A DNA stretch of 64,000 nucleotides, taken from contig NZ_CP049257.1 in assembly GCF_011046535.1 (NCBI RefSeq), positions 5,056,342 to 5,120,341 on the forward strand, read 5' to 3'. The position numbers and the translations under genes are program-made. Numbering within the stretch: position 1 is the first letter of the stretch; each line of letters opens with the position of its first letter. This DNA comes from Nocardioides anomalus (GTDB lineage: Bacteria; Actinomycetota; Actinomycetes; Propionibacteriales; Nocardioidaceae). Under the pieces are notes generated by a model. It was not told the DNA's origin. It did not search any database and saw only the letters and a program-made list of their open reading frames with translations. Below, piece after piece: positions 55,836 through 62,376 of the stretch.

Positions 55836-56783
55836 CTACTGGTCGACCTGGGGTGTCGGCAGTCGGTGGCTCTCGCCGGCGTTGTTGAAGTCGGAGTCCT
55901 TGCGGGCGAACATGTCGTGGCGCTCCTCCGCGCTCAGCGCCTCGACCTGTGCGCGCACGTCGGAGGGGTAGCCGGTGATCTCGGGGACGTCGCCCAGCGG
56001 CACCACGGTGTTGACCAGCCGGTCGGCGTACACGTGGGTCATCGTGAACGACTGGTGGCCGTCCACGCCCGAGATGAAGCGCTCGAGCGGCGCCGGGTCG
56101 GAGGTGTAGCAGGACGCCGACGCCACGCTGACCGGTACGCCGGCGAACGTGCTGTAGGACGAGTAGTGGAAGTGCCCGCCGAGGATCTGGCGCACGTCGG
56201 TGCCCTCGACCACCGCGGCCAGCCGGTGCTGGTCGTGCAGCTCGATGACGGCCGCTGCCTCCATCAGCGGCACCGGGATCGGCGGGTGGTGCATGGCCAG
56301 CACGGTCCCGAGCTCGGCCGGCGTGGCCAGCTGCTCGGCCAGCCAGTCCAGCTGCACGTCGTCGAGCTCGCCGTGGTGCCAGCCGGGCACGCTGGTGTCG
56401 AGGGCGATCACCCGCAGTCCGCGCACGTCGTGCACGCGGTCCTGGAGGCCGTCGTCGTCGGAGTCGAAGAGAGCCCGGGCGTACGCCGCACGCTCGTCGT
56501 GGTTGCCCATGACCCAGACCAGCTGGGCGCCGAGCGCCGCCACGGCCGGCTCGACCACCTCCCGCAGCCGCACGTAGGCCTCGGGCTCCCCGCGGTCGGC
56601 CAGGTCGCCGGTGAAGACCAGGACGTCCGGCTTGCGCTCCAGTCGCGAGAGCCGTTCGAGGGCCAGGCGCAGCCCGGCCTCGGGGTCGACCACGCCGTAC
56701 TGGCGCAGCCCGCCGCCGAGCAGGTGGACATCGCTGAGGTGAGCGATCGTGACGTCGGGTGCGGGGTGCTGGCCGTACTGCAC
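55836..56783 (-). CDS. class III 3',5'-cyclic-nucleotide phosphodiesterase (calcineurin-like)
   Basis: 315 residues with a complete dinuclear metal site: D18 and H20 (HLSDVHL), D60 (FTGDLADRG), N94 and H95 (MGNHDER), H165 (AMHHPPIP), H204 and H206 (GGHFHYSS). This order and length match the CpdA/Rv0805 enzymes, which hydrolyse cAMP. GTG 56783 is supported by TAGAGT 6 bases upstream (leaderless). It ends 3 bases from the convergent hydrolase. It may tune the cAMP signal read by a CRP protein at the nuo promoter. Confidence 0.88.
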   Translation of the reverse strand: MQYGQHPAPDVTIAHLSDVHLLGGGLRQYGVVDPEAGLRLALERLSRLERKPDVLVFTGDLADRGEPEAYVRLREVVEPAVAALGAQLVWVMGNHDERAAYARALFDSDDDGLQDRVHDVRGLRVIALDTSVPGWHHGELDDVQLDWLAEQLATPAELGTVLAMHHPPIPVPLMEAAAVIELHDQHRLAAVVEGTDVRQILGGHFHYSSYSTFAGVPVSVASASCYTSDPAPLERFISGVDGHQSFTMTHVYADRLVNTVVPLGDVPEITGYPSDVRAQVEALSAEERHDMFARKDSDFNNAGESHRLPTPQVDQ

Positions 56784-56789
56784 GCGCAG

Positions 56790-56795
56790 ACTCTA
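56790..56795 (-). promoter_or_regulatory. -10 element for the leaderless phosphodiesterase gene
   Basis: TAGAGT on the minus strand is followed by CTGCGC and then the GTG start at 56783. Confidence 0.55.
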
Positions 56796-56818
56796 GGACC
56801 CGGCCGACACCGCCGCGA

Positions 56819-57292
56819 CTAGGACGTGCGGGCGAGTCGGAAGACCGGGATGAGCCGGTCCGTGCGCTCCTCGTACGTCGCGAAGTTGGGCCAGGTCTCG
56901 AGCATGTGCGCCCAGGCGCGGGCGCGGGCCTCGCCCTCGAGCTCGGTGGCGTGCACGGGGAACCTCTGGCCGCCGTAGCCGACCCTGGCCGCGCCGTCGG
57001 CCGCGCGCAGGTTGTGCACCCACAGCGGCATCGTCGGGCCGCCGAAGTAGGACCCGGCGATGAGGATCGTGTCGCCGTCCGGCACGCACAGCAGCGGGGT
57101 CGACCGCTCCACGCCGCTCTTGCGACCCCGGACGGTGAAGGTGAGGTTGGGCAGCCCGGCGATGTCGAGGACGCTGACCCGGCCGCGGGTCAGCCGCTGC
57201 AGGGTCTTGTCGCTCCACACGATCTGGGGCAGCAGCTTCGGCATCCACGGGAGCGCGCCGATGCGGACGGCGAGGGGAGTCAGCAGACCCAT
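56819..57292 (-). CDS. nitroreductase-family deazaflavin (F420)-dependent oxidoreductase
   Basis: 157 residues, the size of the Ddn family. FTVRGRKSGVERSTPLLCVPDGDTILIAGS (about 52-81) is the F420-binding core with RGRKSG and TPL, and YFGGPTMPLWVHNLRA continues it (P-x-W-xx-NL). DDN relatives reduce quinones, nitro groups or unsaturated lipids using F420H2. ATG 57292 has TAGGAT 6 bases upstream, and a KstR-type palindrome lies 8 bases before that, so repression by a lipid-responsive TetR protein is likely. Confidence 0.88.
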   Translation of the reverse strand: MGLLTPLAVRIGALPWMPKLLPQIVWSDKTLQRLTRGRVSVLDIAGLPNLTFTVRGRKSGVERSTPLLCVPDGDTILIAGSYFGGPTMPLWVHNLRAADGAARVGYGGQRFPVHATELEGEARARAWAHMLETWPNFATYEERTDRLIPVFRLARTS

Positions 57293-57298
57293 GGCCGG

Positions 57299-57326
57299 AT
57301 CCTACCGAGAAGTAGAACAGGTTCTA
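57299..57326 (-). promoter_or_regulatory. leaderless promoter with KstR-type operator for the nitroreductase
   Basis: On the minus strand the palindrome TAGAACAGGTTCTA (57326-57313) is followed after 8 bases by the -10 TAGGAT (57304-57299), then 6 bases and the ATG. The palindrome also contains the TAG stop of the upstream DUF3224-like gene. Confidence 0.6.
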
Positions 57327-57701
57327 GGTGAGGTCGAAGGTGAAGAACGCGCCCTCGTCGTCGTGGCCGATCCGCGCCGTCCCGCTCCACCCGCTCCAGT
57401 CGTCGGTGCCCGTGCCGGGCACGACGTGACCGAACGCGACGTCGGGGTCGGACTCGAGGGCGCCGTGGTGCACCGTGACGCTGCCCGAGCGGCCGTCGTC
57501 GGTGGTGCCGGTGATGTGCTCGGCCGCGAGGTAGCCGCGCTGACCTTCGTCGCCGCTGGCGACGAACAGAGCGACCGAGGTGCCGGCGATGCCGGCGGTG
57601 AACCGCTTCGACAGCCGGGCCGCGCCGACCCAGTCGTCGATCCCCTCGATGCTCCGCTCGTCCCAGCCGTCGACCGCGAACCGGGCGATGAGTGTCGTCA
57701 T
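57324..57701 (-). CDS. DUF3224-like small protein
   Basis: 125 residues with no signal or membrane segment. The pattern is of alternating beta strands: LIARFAVDGWDER, SKRFTAGIAGTSVALFVASG, YLAAEHITGTTDDGRSGSVT and HHGALESDPDVAFGHVVPG, ending in TARIGHDDEGAFFTFDLT. This layout fits the DUF3224 beta-barrel family. ATG 57701 has TACGCT 7 bases upstream, giving a leaderless start. Function unknown. Confidence 0.82.
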   Translation of the reverse strand: MTTLIARFAVDGWDERSIEGIDDWVGAARLSKRFTAGIAGTSVALFVASGDEGQRGYLAAEHITGTTDDGRSGSVTVHHGALESDPDVAFGHVVPGTGTDDWSGWSGTARIGHDDEGAFFTFDLT

Positions 57702-57736: not shown

Positions 57737-58723
57737 TCAGACCACGGAGGTCGGCCCCGCGTCGTGCAGCTCGGCGCGGAGCGTGGCCACGGCCTGCGCG
57801 ACCGCGGCCCGGGCCGGCGGCATGTCGTGCAGGGAGTTCAGCATGACGAAGTCGTGGATGACGCCCTGGTAGCGCACCGCGACCGTCGGCACCCCGGCCT
57901 GGCGCAGCTTGGCGGCGTACGCCTCGCCCTCGTCGCGCAGCACGTCGGCCTCGCCGGTGATGACCAGCGCCGGCGGCAGGCCGCGGAGCTGCTCGACCGA
58001 GGCGCGCAGCGGGGAGGCGGTGACCTGGGCGCGCTCGTCGGGGTCGGTCGTGTACTGGTCCCAGAACCAGTGCATGCCGGTGCGCGAGAGGAAGTAGCCG
58101 TCGGCGAACTGCTCGTACGACGCGGTGTCGAACGACGCGTCGGTGACGGGGTAGAAGAGCACCTGCTGCACGAAGGAGACCGTGCCGCGGTCCTTGGCCA
58201 TCAGCGTCAGCGCGGCCGACATGTTGCCGCCCACCGAGTCACCGACCACGGCCATCCGCGAGCCGTCGAGCAGGTTGGCGGCGCCCTCGCGGACGACCCA
58301 CTCCGCCACGGCCCACGCCTGCTCGAGCTGGGTCGGGTAGCGGTGCTCGGGCGCGCGGTCGTACTCCGGGAAGACGACGGCCGCGTGGGCGCCGACGGCC
58401 AGGTCGCGGACCAGTCGGTCGTGGGTGTGGGCGTCACCGAACACCCAGCCGGCGCCGTGCACGTAGAGCACGACGGGCAGGGTGCCCGCGGCGTCCGGCG
58501 GCCGCACGATCCGGACCTTGACGCTGCCGGTCGGACCGCCCTCGACGGTCGTCCACTCCTCGTGCACGTCGGGCTTGGTGATCTCCGAGCTCTGCACCTC
58601 GTCCACCGCCTCCCGCCCCTTCTCGGGTCCGAGGTCGTAGAGGTACGGCGGCTCCGCGGTCGCCTCGGCGAAGGCCTGGGCGGCGGGCTCGAGCGGCAGG
58701 CCGTGGGGGTTGGCGGCGGGCAT
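57737..58723 (-). CDS. hormone-sensitive-lipase-type alpha/beta hydrolase
   Basis: 328 residues. YVHGAGWVFGD (88-97) is the HGGG-type oxyanion motif, here HGAG; GDSVGGN places the nucleophile Ser163; the acid lies in TGEADVLRDEG and the histidine in GVIHDFVML. It is cytoplasmic and probably an esterase/lipase or lactonase. ATG 58723 follows CAGGAGGAG. It is divergent from the LAL regulator, with the shared palindrome at 58796-58807 about 43 bases before its probable transcription start. Confidence 0.9.
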   Translation of the reverse strand: MPAANPHGLPLEPAAQAFAEATAEPPYLYDLGPEKGREAVDEVQSSEITKPDVHEEWTTVEGGPTGSVKVRIVRPPDAAGTLPVVLYVHGAGWVFGDAHTHDRLVRDLAVGAHAAVVFPEYDRAPEHRYPTQLEQAWAVAEWVVREGAANLLDGSRMAVVGDSVGGNMSAALTLMAKDRGTVSFVQQVLFYPVTDASFDTASYEQFADGYFLSRTGMHWFWDQYTTDPDERAQVTASPLRASVEQLRGLPPALVITGEADVLRDEGEAYAAKLRQAGVPTVAVRYQGVIHDFVMLNSLHDMPPARAAVAQAVATLRAELHDAGPTSVV

Positions 58724-58764
58724 GGACTCCTCCTGGGGACGCGGTCGGTGGTGACTACGCTGCG

Positions 58765-58807
58765 ACGCTAGGGAGACCCGCCTGCGGGCGGCATCAGTCG
58801 AGTGACT
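58765..58807. promoter_or_regulatory. LAL-regulator operator and promoter of the HSL-type hydrolase
   Basis: AGTC-GAGT-GACT (58796-58807) is a palindrome with 4-base arms. Reading on the minus strand, 25 bases separate it from the -10 TAGCGT (58770-58765). The flank CGAGTCACTCGACTGATGCC recurs upstream of the second hydrolase with only two differences. Confidence 0.55.
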
Positions 58808-58829
58808 CGGATGCGTCCTGGGGAGGGCG

Positions 58830-61586
58830 ATGGCACAGGGCTGGAGCGGGTCGGACCACGGACTGGTCGCCCGCGACGACGAGCTCCGGTCCGTACGCCG
58901 CCACCTCACCTCCGGCGGCCGGGTGCTGACCGTGCTGGGCATGGCCGGCGCCGGCAAGACCGCGCTGCTCACCGCGGCCGCGGCCGGCGCCGCCGCCGAG
59001 GGCTGGCTCGTGCTGCGGCTGCGTGGCCGCGCCACCGAGGCCAAGCTCGGCTTCGCCACCCTGCTCGACCTGCTGGACGCCGCGGACGCGCCGGACCCCG
59101 AGACGGCGGCGCTCGCCGGGTCGGTCCGGGAGCGGGTGCTGGGCGGTGGCACGCCGGACGCGCTGCGGCTGCGCCGCGACGTGCACCAGTGGCTGCTCGC
59201 GCTGGCGCCCGACGAGCTGGTGCTGGTGCTGGTCGACGACGCGCAGTGGGTCGATCCGGCCTCGTGGCTGGTGCTGTCCTTCGTGGCCAACCGGCTGGCG
59301 GACTCGACGGTCTCGGTGCTGCTCGCGTCGCGCACCGACGCGCCCGCGGCCGGGCTCGAGGACCAGCCCGTCCTGCACCTCGCCCCGCTGGTGCCGGCCG
59401 CGGCCGCCGAGCTGCTCGAGCGCGTCGGGCTGGCCACCGACCCGGTGGTGCGCTCCGCGGTCGTGCAGCAGGCCGCCGGCAACCCGCTGGCGCTGCTGGA
59501 GCTGGCCCGGGTCGGGAGCGGCGCCGTGCCCAGCGCGACCAGGGTCCACCCGACCGTGCCCGCCGCGATCGAGGCGGCGTTCGCGGCGGAGCTGCCCGCC
59601 CTGCCCGACGACACCCGGTGGGTGCTGCTGCTCGCTGCCGCCGGCGGCACCGACCTGGCCGTGCTGGCCCGGGCGGTCGGCGACACCGGCGACGTCATGG
59701 CCCTGCTCGAGCCGGCCGAGCGTGCCGACCTGGTCCGGGTGGGCGACGCGCAGGTGTCGTTCCGGCACCCGCTGGTCGAGGCCGCGGTCTACGGCCTGGC
59801 CGGCGCCCGTCAGCGGCGCCGGGCGCACGCGAGGCTCGCCGACCTGTTCCCGGTCGAGGACGACCGGCACGTGTGGCACCTCGCCGCCGCGACCGAGGGG
59901 CCGGACGAGGCCGTCGCGACCGCGCTGCTCGCCAGTGCGGAGCGGATGCGGGACCGCGGCGCCCAGGAGGAGGCCGCCGACGCGGTGGTGCGCGCCGCGG
60001 AGCTGACCGCCGACCCCGACCTGCGCGACGAGCGGATGCTCAACGGGCTCAGCCTGTCCACGGCCGTCGGACACGTGCACCGGCTGTCCGCGCTCGCCGC
60101 CCACTTCCGCCGCCGCTCGACCCACCCGGTCGTCCGCGCCAAGGCCGCGCAGCTGCACGCCTACGTGCTCGCGCAGACCATGCAGCAGGCCTCGGCGCAG
60201 GACATGCTCCAGGTCGCGCTGGAGGAGATGATCAAGGTCGACGACGTGGGCGGGTGGGCCTCGCTCACCACGCTCGCCTCCCTGACCTACCAGACCTGTC
60301 GCCGGCGCGAGGTGCTGGCGCACTGGCTCGAGCGCTACGAGGCGATCACGCCCCACGACTTCGACGACCAGCCGCTGAACGCCGCGGCGCGGCTGTGGAT
60401 CATCGCCGCCCTCGACCCGGTGGCGCCGCCGGCGGAGGTGCGGCAGCGGCTCCGCACCGCACCGGACCTGCCGTCCGGAGCGCCGGCGCACCTCGCCGCC
60501 CCCTACGAGATGCTCCTCGGCGCGACCGCGTGGGTGCTCGACGACCCGGGCACGGCCCTGCAGCGGCTGGGCCGGTCCGGCGACCTGATGCGGCTCAGCG
60601 GGGCCGTCCAGCAGCTCCCGCAGAACGTGATGACGCTCGGCCAGGTGCAGTTCGACACCGGCCGCTACGACGACGCGGACCGCTCCGGGCGCCAGCTCGT
60701 GGACCTCAGCGAGGCCTACGGGCTGCCGTACTACCGAGCGGCCGGTCGCGAGCTGCGGGCCCGCGTGGCGGCGGTGCGCGGCGAGCCGGACGCGGTCGCG
60801 ACGCTGGACGCGCTGCTCACGGGCACCGAGCCCGGTCAGTCGGTCTCGCTGGAGGCCAACCTGCTCGCCGGTCGCGCCCTCGCGCTGAGCGCGCAGCGCG
60901 AGCACGAGGCGGCCTACCAGCAGTGGCGCGGCCTGTTCGACGCGGACGGCACGCCGCTGCACCCCCACGTCTCCCTCCGCAGTCTCGGCGAGCTGGCGGC
61001 CGCGGCGGACCGGGTCGACCGGCTCGACGACGTCGTCGCGATCGTCCGGGGCGCCGAGGGACAGCTGACCGATCTCCCCGGCCAGCGGCTGACGCGCGTG
61101 CTGGCCCGGGCCAAGGCGCACCTGGCCGGGGACGCCGCCGGCCCGCTCTACGAGCGGGCGGTGCACGAGGGCGGTGCCGCGGACTTCCCCTTCGAGCGGG
61201 CCGGCGCCCAGCTCGAGTACGGCGGCTGGCTGCGCCGGCAGCGCCGCGCCACCGACGCGCGCGACCACCTCCGCTCGGCCCACCAGACGTTCACCAGGAT
61301 CGGCGCGACGGCGTGGGCCGCGATGGCCGAGGCCGAGCTGCGAGCGGCCGGGGTCCGCGCCGACGGCGACCACCACGCCGCGCGCTGGGCCGCGCTGACC
61401 GCGCAGGAGCGCGAGATCGTGCGCCTCGCCGCGACCGGGCTGAGCAACAAGGAGATCGGGCAGGCGCTGTTCTTGTCGCCGCGGACCGTGGGCGCGCACC
61501 TCTACCACGCGTTCCCGAAGCTCGGCGTGACCGCCCGCAGCCAGCTGCGCGACGTCGTCGACGGCGGATCTGAGTCACGCGACTGA
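58830..61586 (+). CDS. large ATP-binding LuxR-family regulator (LAL)
   Basis: 918 residues. An N-terminal AAA-type ATPase has Walker A GMAGAGKT (37-44) and Walker B region LVLVLVDDAQWVD. The middle 500 residues are helical TPR-like repeats. The C-terminal LuxR helix-turn-helix is LTAQEREIVRLAATGLSNKE followed by IGQALFLSPRTVGAHLYHAF. LAL proteins are usually activators that bind small ligands, as MalT does. ATG 58830 follows GGGGAGG. It sits between two alpha/beta hydrolases, each preceded by the same palindrome; the second copy overlaps its own stop codon. Confidence 0.92.
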   Translation: MAQGWSGSDHGLVARDDELRSVRRHLTSGGRVLTVLGMAGAGKTALLTAAAAGAAAEGWLVLRLRGRATEAKLGFATLLDLLDAADAPDPETAALAGSVRERVLGGGTPDALRLRRDVHQWLLALAPDELVLVLVDDAQWVDPASWLVLSFVANRLADSTVSVLLASRTDAPAAGLEDQPVLHLAPLVPAAAAELLERVGLATDPVVRSAVVQQAAGNPLALLELARVGSGAVPSATRVHPTVPAAIEAAFAAELPALPDDTRWVLLLAAAGGTDLAVLARAVGDTGDVMALLEPAERADLVRVGDAQVSFRHPLVEAAVYGLAGARQRRRAHARLADLFPVEDDRHVWHLAAATEGPDEAVATALLASAERMRDRGAQEEAADAVVRAAELTADPDLRDERMLNGLSLSTAVGHVHRLSALAAHFRRRSTHPVVRAKAAQLHAYVLAQTMQQASAQDMLQVALEEMIKVDDVGGWASLTTLASLTYQTCRRREVLAHWLERYEAITPHDFDDQPLNAAARLWIIAALDPVAPPAEVRQRLRTAPDLPSGAPAHLAAPYEMLLGATAWVLDDPGTALQRLGRSGDLMRLSGAVQQLPQNVMTLGQVQFDTGRYDDADRSGRQLVDLSEAYGLPYYRAAGRELRARVAAVRGEPDAVATLDALLTGTEPGQSVSLEANLLAGRALALSAQREHEAAYQQWRGLFDADGTPLHPHVSLRSLGELAAAADRVDRLDDVVAIVRGAEGQLTDLPGQRLTRVLARAKAHLAGDAAGPLYERAVHEGGAADFPFERAGAQLEYGGWLRRQRRATDARDHLRSAHQTFTRIGATAWAAMAEAELRAAGVRADGDHHAARWAALTAQEREIVRLAATGLSNKEIGQALFLSPRTVGAHLYHAFPKLGVTARSQLRDVVDGGSESRD

Positions 61587-61614
61587 TGCCCTCGAGGGGA
61601 CCGCTCCCCAGGAT
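61573..61614 (+). promoter_or_regulatory. LAL-regulator operator and promoter of the second hydrolase
   Basis: AGTC-ACGC-GACT (61573-61584) overlaps the LAL stop codon. After 24 bases comes CAGGAT (61609-61614), a -10 candidate, and then six bases to a GTG at 61621. The operator centre is 42.5 bases before that position, the classical distance for LuxR-type activators. Confidence 0.55.
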
Positions 61615-61653
61615 CGGGGCGTGCCGCCCGGCACACCTCCCGAAGGAGCACCC

Positions 61654-62376
61654 ATGTCCGACACCCCCACCGTGGTCCTGGTCCACGGAGCGTTCGCCGA
61701 CGCCGCCAGCTTCGCCCGCGTCGTACCCCTCCTGCTCGACGACGGCATCGCGGTGCGCGTGCCGGCCGTCCCGAACCGCAGCCTGTCCGGCGACGCGGCG
61801 TACATCGCCTCCGTGGTCCGCCAGATCGACGGACCGGTCCTGCTGGTCGGCCACTCCTACGGCGGCGCGGTGATCACCGTGGCCGGCGCCGAGGCGAACG
61901 TCGCCGGGCTCGTCTACCTGGCCGGCTACGCGCTCGACGAGGGCGAGAGCCTCGGTGAGCTGCAGGGCCGCTTCCCCGACTCGCCGCTGGCCCAGGCGCT
62001 GGTCTACACCCAGTTCCCGGTCGAGGGCTCCGACGAGCCCGGCACCGACGTGTCGGTCGACGTGGAGAAGCTGCCCGAGATCTTCGCCGCCGACGTCGAG
62101 CCCGAGCTGGCCCGGGTCCTCGCCGTCTCGCAGCGGCCGCTGGCCGGCGCGGCGTTCGGCGAGCCCGCGAGCACCGCGGCCTGGAAGACCAAGCCGGCCT
62201 GGGGGATCGTCTCCTCCTCCGACCGGACCATCAACCCCGACGTGGAGCGGTTCGGCTACGAGCGGGCCGGCATGACCGTGACGGAGATCGACTCCTCCCA
62301 CCTCGTGATGCTCTCGCACCCGCAGGAGGTCGCCGACGTGATCCGCACGGCCCTGGCCTCCGTCGTCCAGGCCTAG
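61654..62376 (+). CDS. alpha/beta-fold hydrolase (esterase type)
   Basis: 240 residues. VVLVHGAFADAASF (7-20) is the oxyanion strand, VGHSYGG gives the nucleophile Ser68, SSSDRTINPD the acid and DSSHLVMLSHPQ the histidine. The family includes small esterases and salicylate-methylesterase-like enzymes. ATG 61654 follows GAAGGAG; an in-frame GTG at 61621, at the predicted transcription start, would add 11 residues. It lies directly downstream of the LAL regulator with its own operator. Confidence 0.9.
   Translation: MSDTPTVVLVHGAFADAASFARVVPLLLDDGIAVRVPAVPNRSLSGDAAYIASVVRQIDGPVLLVGHSYGGAVITVAGAEANVAGLVYLAGYALDEGESLGELQGRFPDSPLAQALVYTQFPVEGSDEPGTDVSVDVEKLPEIFAADVEPELARVLAVSQRPLAGAAFGEPASTAAWKTKPAWGIVSSSDRTINPDVERFGYERAGMTVTEIDSSHLVMLSHPQEVADVIRTALASVVQA

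Follow-up and report, generated by a model that had tools for sequence, protein, structure and literature searches.

A candidate operator shared by two hydrolase genes in Nocardioides anomalus and its recurrence beside related LAL-family regulator genes

Do two hydrolase genes that lie on either side of a LAL-family regulator gene answer to that regulator through one common operator? The question is raised by the end of the Nocardioides anomalus genome, a single contig of 5.12 Mb, of which we analysed the final 64 kb (the window; positions refer to it unless another sequence is named). Here the LAL gene lies between a divergent hydrolase gene, which we call HSL, and a downstream hydrolase gene, which we call EST. 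A first-pass annotation had described one block upstream of both hydrolase genes and had read the three genes as a self-contained regulon. That proposal is well supported by the conservation of the block, its linkage to LAL genes, its near-fixed distance from a –10-like hexamer and its occurrence in other families. We estimate a probability of about 0.8 that the block is a dedicated operator of one LAL subfamily, from which the regulator would activate the adjacent hydrolase genes at a position of about –43 as a local regulon. The features of the locus are:

57737..58723, minus strand: HSL, an Abhydrolase_3 protein of the hormone-sensitive-lipase type, 328 aa (Pfam PF07859, E 1.2e-70)
58765..58770, minus strand: –10 candidate TAGCGT for HSL, 20 nt after the operator core (the 16-mer GTC...GATGC)
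58790..58815, minus strand: extended 26-nt operator block 1, one member of an inverted-repeat pair (88% complementary)
58791..58806, minus strand: operator 1 core, GTC-ACTC-GAC-T-GATGC, 5' of HSL, conserved in the relative G030
58830..61586, plus strand: LAL regulator, 918 aa (Pfam PF13191 at 12-159, PF00196 at 855-907)
61565..61590, plus strand: extended 26-nt operator block 2, the other member of the same pair (88%)
61574..61589, plus strand: operator 2 core, GTC-ACGC-GAC-T-GATGC, 5' of EST, overlapping the LAL stop codon, conserved in G030
61609..61614, plus strand: –10 candidate CAGGAT for EST, 19 nt after the operator core
61654..62376, plus strand: EST, a small Abhydrolase_6 hydrolase, 240 aa (Pfam PF12697, E 9.5e-25)

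Each copy of the 19-base block GAGTCAC(T/G)CGACTGATGCC is directed at one hydrolase gene: copy 1 is GAGTCACTCGACTGATGCC (58790-58808, minus strand) and copy 2 is GAGTCACGCGACTGATGCC (61572-61590, plus strand). When we allowed up to 3 mismatches in the window, we found 2 matches as compared to 0.11 expected, and none of 100 shuffles reached 2. At up to 2 mismatches the whole genome holds these two copies only, which confirms the common block; two additional places appear at 3 mismatches, the same number that the reversed control gives at up to 3. The palindrome AGTC-N4-GACT, which the first-pass annotation had pointed out within the block, occurs twice in the window as compared to 0.85 expected, and 20 of 100 shuffles reach 2. 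We thus rejected chance as the origin of the 19-mer; the bare palindrome is not beyond chance, and the sequence that is conserved is instead GTC-N4-GAC-N-GATGC. Read on the opposite strand, block 1 is GTC-GAGT-GAC-TCG-GATGC, so that GATGC is present on both arms with unequal spacing.

Across 215 genomes of the genus, the LAL protein has 14 matches at E <= 1e-120, spread over 10 genomes including that of the window; counting a tandem pair once leaves 13 loci. All 13 have GTC-N4-GAC-N-GATGC or the variant GTC-N4-GTC-N-GATAC at an end of the LAL gene and score 14 or 15 of 15, a count that is partly fitted because the merged consensus was built from the same 13 loci. A score of 13 is reached in 12 of 1300 Markov shuffles of the same zones, and one locus scores 12 with the motif reversed. 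A search of related genomes for the palindrome, which the first-pass annotation had put forward as a check, bears out the site and not its outer bases: the A and T at the ends of AGTC-N4-GACT are not kept in relatives, and the conserved core is GTC-N4-GAC with the 3' tail N-GATGC. In a DNA scan of the 215 genomes, exact GTCACNCGACTGATGC is present at 5 places in 3 genomes, all of them at the LAL locus.

The arrangement around the site varies. G030 repeats the full arrangement of the window, with a site before each of the two hydrolase genes on either side of the LAL gene, and its hydrolases are 86% and 83% identical to HSL and EST. In G030 the second site lies just past the LAL stop codon, as compared to the overlap with the stop codon in the window, and in others it is likewise outside the LAL frame; for this reason we rejected coding constraint at the 3' end of the LAL gene as the source of operator 2. 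In three further loci (G076 contig 3, G152 and G008 contig 32) the LAL gene is followed by a single site, then HSL, then EST. With a single site serving both hydrolase genes in these three relatives, the second copy in the window may have arisen by duplication when the hydrolase pair was split, and the assertion that the shared block is not a duplication relic is not established. The hydrolases themselves, which had been called unrelated in detail, do belong to different Pfam families (Abhydrolase_3 and Abhydrolase_6) but have the same fold. In G228 and G076 (contig 2) the site precedes other alpha/beta hydrolase genes, and in G008 (contig 1, L175 9950-10902) it stands before a divergent gene for a BTAD-domain regulator in place of a hydrolase gene. 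In the other five loci the site is the variant GTC-N4-GTC-N-GATAC and stands directly after the LAL gene; an Abhydrolase_1-type gene comes next in G102 and G203 (Pfam on G102 only).

The same loci yielded some separate observations. In L164, L165 and L174 (G150, G152 and G010) the variant site is followed by a frame beginning MDL, opposite to an EST-like gene, which could encode a small protein, could mark an antisense transcript or could be there by chance. The G203 LAL gene (L166 6673-9389) is split into two frames of 285 and 611 aa, through decay or assembly error. In G354 (L204 5221-5262) a site with its hexamer precedes a protein that by look resembles the G008 BTAD regulator.

Since the two 26-nt blocks are inverted repeats (88%) on either side of the LAL gene, they could be taken for the ends of a mobile or invertible unit. 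We rejected this explanation, which we regard as extremely improbable: 11 of the 13 genus loci have a site at one end of the LAL gene only, each with a spaced –10-like hexamer, and no recombinase is present among the seven window proteins scanned with Pfam.

We then asked how the site is placed with respect to the promoter. Among 15 genus sites, mean pairwise identity is 0.78 within the site, 0.36 in the spacer and 0.34 upstream. The hexamer [TC]AG..T starts +20 nt from the 16-mer in 10 of the 15 and +19 in two, as compared to a mean of 0.04 elsewhere, and the remaining three have TACCGT, AAGGCT and GAGCGT at that position. Further conserved bases lie 5' of the site, an A at –6 in 14 of 15 and a T at –3 in 12 of 15. 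The 24-25 bases to the –10 candidate given in the first-pass annotation, if counted from the palindrome end, are the same as 19-20 nt after the 16-mer, and its estimate of about 43 bases from centre to start agrees with ours: with the hexamer assumed at –12 to –7, the palindrome centre would lie at about –43.5. In several loci a start codon comes 6-7 nt after the hexamer. Such spacing is that of leaderless genes and agrees with the assumed transcription start, although alternative starts exist in some. By consensus, no sigma-70-like promoter pair or terminator is present at 58600-61750. Class II activators of the LuxR/FixJ type are typically centred near –43, where they overlap the –35 region.

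This geometry bears on whether the regulator activates or represses. A repressor would block the hydrolase promoters, and its own when divergent, until released by a ligand. Such a role would suit operator 1, which on its other side ends 23 nt from the LAL start codon, with a similar arrangement in G030 and G008 contig 1, and a studied LAL regulator, SCO6993, is reported to be a repressor that binds its own promoter (PMC9628970). In contrast, the operator in the 15 genus sites lies at a near-fixed distance 5' of the –10 rather than across it, and the lack of a sigma-70-like pair in the stretch scanned leaves the geometry of an activator. We therefore consider repression unlikely and activation the better account, with an effect on the expression of the LAL gene itself as a possible addition.

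Does the site belong to the hydrolase genes or to the LAL gene? EST homologues (E <= 1e-55) are found at 12 places in 10 of the 215 genus genomes; the site is present in all five that lie beside this LAL gene and in none of the other seven, one of which has a weak LAL-like match (60.8 bits) nearby. HSL homologues (E <= 1e-100) are found at 31 places in 27 of the 215 genomes, and we examined 30 of these loci together with flanks of up to 1.5 kb. Site plus –10 is present in 5/5 loci with this LAL gene, one of which (G076) depends on admitting AAGGCT as a –10, and in 0/25 loci without it, three of which have another LAL-like gene nearby. HSL and EST occur as a pair at seven loci of the genus. This LAL gene is present at five of them and absent from two, G205 and G147, which keep the pair with neither LAL gene nor site. 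As a separate observation, the G205 pair (L242 5737-9549) is preceded by genes whose products, judged from the sequence, resemble a peroxidase of the DyP type and the shell protein of an encapsulin. Because relatives that keep the hydrolases without the LAL gene lack the site, and because LAL genes of other families have it beside other enzymes, the assignment of the operator to the LAL gene rather than to the hydrolase genes is well supported by these comparisons. This co-occurrence suggests that the LAL protein binds the site.

We chose 100 LAL open reading frames by protein similarity alone (loci L011-L115) and found that 29 have the recognition-helix signature RT[VI]..HLY..[FY]P.LG (HLY-[FY]P-LG). 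A site score of at least 13 is reached by 9 of the 29 with the signature (0.25 expected from shuffles) and by none of the 71 without it (0.85 expected), and a score of 14 by 5 of the 29 (0.00 expected) and again none of the 71 (0.10 expected). A tree of 128 LAL proteins, drawn with the helix-turn-helix (HTH) left out, includes loci that had been selected because they have the site; on it, 29 of the 31 site-bearing LAL proteins have the signature. We regard the link between signature and site as a strong lead rather than proof.

To look beyond the genus, we scanned a composite of site and hexamer, GTCN4GACNGATGC-N20-TANNGT, in two overlapping sets of genomes. It occurs in 15 of 394 genomes of the class, at 16 places as compared to none for the reversed control, and in 12 of 391 genomes of the order, at 13 places as compared to one for the reversed control; one place is common to both sets, which leaves 28 distinct places. 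Of these, 13 have a LAL-family gene no more than 100 nt away (own genome, G000; G030, G228, G583, G373, G293, G276, G495, G444, G047, G042, G044 and G205), and in G584 the LAL gene is one gene further away. In G583, from another family, the LAL gene and an Abhydrolase_3 gene are divergent as in the window, and the product of the latter is 42% identical to HSL. Other genes that the site would drive beyond the genus encode RibD_C, SnoaL_2, FMN_red and DSBA proteins (Pfam), and in G364 and G416, with no LAL gene in the stretch, they resemble the RibD_C genes linked to LAL genes elsewhere. When up to 2 mismatches are allowed in the composite, the genome of the window yields one extra place, about 440 nt before another LAL frame, which we did not count because the reversed control gives 4 places at that stringency.

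Several findings weigh against a dedicated LAL operator, or against its reach. Within the genus, the 16-mer at 1 mismatch is present in 75 of 215 genomes, with many matches of the control as well, and five such places that we inspected (L168-L172) are not at any LAL gene; judged from the control columns and these places, 1-mismatch matches are mostly chance. A bare or one-mismatch 16-mer is also found at 5 of the 25 HSL loci without this LAL gene, none with a –10. The 13 LAL-adjacent composite places are not independent: G373, G293 and G276 are of one genus, G047, G042 and G044 of another, and G000, G030, G228 and G205 of the genus of the window. The G205 protein at the site is without an HTH, which the overlapping next LAL has, with the signature. 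For 14 of the 28 composite places there is no LAL gene in the 7-11 kb examined; these may be distal targets or chance. As for the helix, at a site score of 12 the contrast is weak (10/29 with 2.90 expected, as compared to 7/71 with 7.30 expected), four of the nine matches at score 13 form two near-duplicate pairs, and some of the loci were already known when the signature was fixed; 2 of the 31 site-bearing LAL proteins on the tree are without it, and the link there comes down to 3 independent pairs, a number that gives a test no power. In 79 distant loci, searched with the strict pattern and no more than 1 mismatch, enrichment is only weak, with 6 matches near LAL ends (95 per Mb) as compared to 26 elsewhere (31 per Mb) and 4 near LAL ends for a spacer-5 control. 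The pattern becomes informative only once the –10 is added and the LAL genes are sorted by recognition helix. A match in Labedella (L108) was rejected as an operator, since it points into a LAL gene with another helix type and is probably chance.

The composite places without a LAL gene nearby, together with a GATGC tail and a TAGCGT hexamer at near-fixed spacing like two promoter boxes, might suggest that the element is a promoter of an alternative sigma factor, or the site of some other regulator, and is merely linked to LAL genes. We find this improbable. Our own genome has just two copies, whereas a global factor would have many; exact copies in the genus are at LAL genes only; and presence of the element tracks the LAL gene rather than the target genes, with one recognition-helix type in the set picked by similarity. 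Taken together, these data make it rather probable that a subfamily of LAL regulators, mostly those with HLY-[FY]P-LG, has an operator-promoter module across Actinomycetes, GTC-N4-GAC-N-GATGC-N20-TAGCGT with the variant GTC-N4-GTC-N-GATAC, whose regulons could be read from sequence. Each such LAL gene would retain the module beside it, with the driven gene swapped among HSL, small esterases, other alpha/beta hydrolases, RibD-type reductase, FMN reductase, SnoaL-like and DsbA-like proteins and a BTAD regulator.

Two groups of composite places may be noted. In five genomes of family f23 (L195-L199), RibD_C-type reductase genes follow the site (one of the five scanned with Pfam); a LAL gene ends 27-29 nt before the site in three, and there is none in the examined stretch in the other two. 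In G645 (L225 4809-4850 and 6154-6195) two sites 1.3 kb apart on opposite strands precede genes that by eye are methyltransferase-like and sigma-factor-like, with no LAL gene in the 11 kb examined.

How might the regulator act on HSL and EST? The N-terminal half of the LAL protein is the AAA ATPase PF13191, with its Walker motifs retained (Walker A GMAGAGKT at 37, Walker B LVLVLVDDAQW at 130), and the C-terminal LuxR/GerE HTH (PF00196) contains RTVGAHLYHAFPKLG. Pfam detects no autoinducer-binding, receiver or SARP domain, and the sensor half is the ATPase. We propose that a small molecule, which may be an ester or a product of one, is sensed by this ATP-binding STAND-type protein with its LuxR-type HTH, and that the protein binds GTC-N4-GAC-N-GATGC as a dimer or oligomer. 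Because the palindrome centre is about 43 bases before the presumed start and there is no good –35 hexamer there, the bound LAL protein most likely recruits RNA polymerase to the –10 (TAGCGT or CAGGAT) in class II fashion, which would switch on HSL and EST.

Both enzymes retain serine-hydrolase motifs. HSL has HGAGW, GDSVGG, ADVLRDEG and VIHDF, which we take to be the HGGGW-type and GDSAG-type set of family IV esterases with its Asp and His, and with PF07859 these motifs place it, by sequence, among hormone-sensitive-lipase (family IV) esterases. It matches PDB 7yc0 at E 3.3e-104, and its PDB matches are esterases and lipases among the 60 shown of 115; its 294.9 bits fall below the curated cut-off of 350 for NCBIfam LipP1. 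EST has GHSYGG, SSDRTIN and SSH, and its PDB matches are weak only (a pyrethroid hydrolase and SABP2, 6 sequences). Hydrolases of this fold can open lactones and the LAL protein has a LuxR-type HTH, from which one could imagine quorum quenching, with the hydrolases destroying a signal that the regulator senses. The lack of an autoinducer-binding domain by Pfam, and of any named acyl-homoserine lactone (AHL) lactonase in the Pfam, NCBIfam and PDB matches listed (for HSL, 60 of 115 in PDB; no direct comparison with such an enzyme was made), where HSL resembles esterases and lipases and EST has no strong match, make this very improbable; the first-pass label of a quorum-quenching-like unit is unsupported.

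Other genes lie close by. On the same strand 3' of HSL (55836-57698) are a DUF3224 gene, an F420H2-dependent quinone reductase gene and a metallophosphoesterase gene; because none of the three has a match in the 18 kb around the G030 locus, they are probably outside the conserved unit. In the genome of the window there are 16 matches to the LAL protein at E <= 0.001, which may include HTH-only relatives. A second LAL protein (L274 2234-5579; G000 contig 1, about 2985733-2989078) is 46% identical to the G495 LAL protein and has the helix SHRTVGTHLHRLFPKLG; 175 nt after its gene is a small hydrolase-like frame (HGAFADGSGW), with no site of this consensus. This is a second LAL-hydrolase neighbourhood, perhaps with a different operator.

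Actinobacteria have many LAL regulators, but little is known of the operators that these poorly understood proteins use. We found no published LAL operator of this form in the open-licence literature, and the passages of PMC3282765 and PMC3466318 contain no LAL operator. A clear operator with near-fixed spacing would allow genome-based target prediction for a LAL subfamily, would supply reporter constructs for finding the ligand and would link orphan hydrolases and reductases to a sensor, with HSL and EST as a concrete enzyme pair.

The nearest known case is LipR-lipA, the lipAR operon of Streptomyces exfoliatus and S. coelicolor (PMC12134079). In both systems a LuxR/LAL-family gene adjoins hydrolase genes, control here being suggested by the common operator. 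In contrast, the Streptomyces lipase gene comes first in a single operon, lipA then lipR, whereas here the LAL gene lies between two other hydrolase genes, each with its own site. SARP-LAL regulators of the PimR type share the LAL C-terminal half; for their DNA binding a SARP domain or heptameric direct repeats are reported (PMC5930380, PMC3367932), and Pfam detects no SARP domain in the window LAL protein. The regulators MalT, PikD, SCO0877/SCO7173 and SCO6993 are, like the window protein, large, with an N-terminal ATPase and a C-terminal LuxR HTH. For SCO6993 the 2022 study (PMC9628970) gives palindromic sites without a consensus, which its authors say is not predictable, whereas the LAL group described here has one clear common operator with near-fixed promoter spacing. 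Its implied placement near –43 would be that of LuxR/FixJ-type class II activators, from which the window LAL protein differs in that its sensor half is an ATPase.

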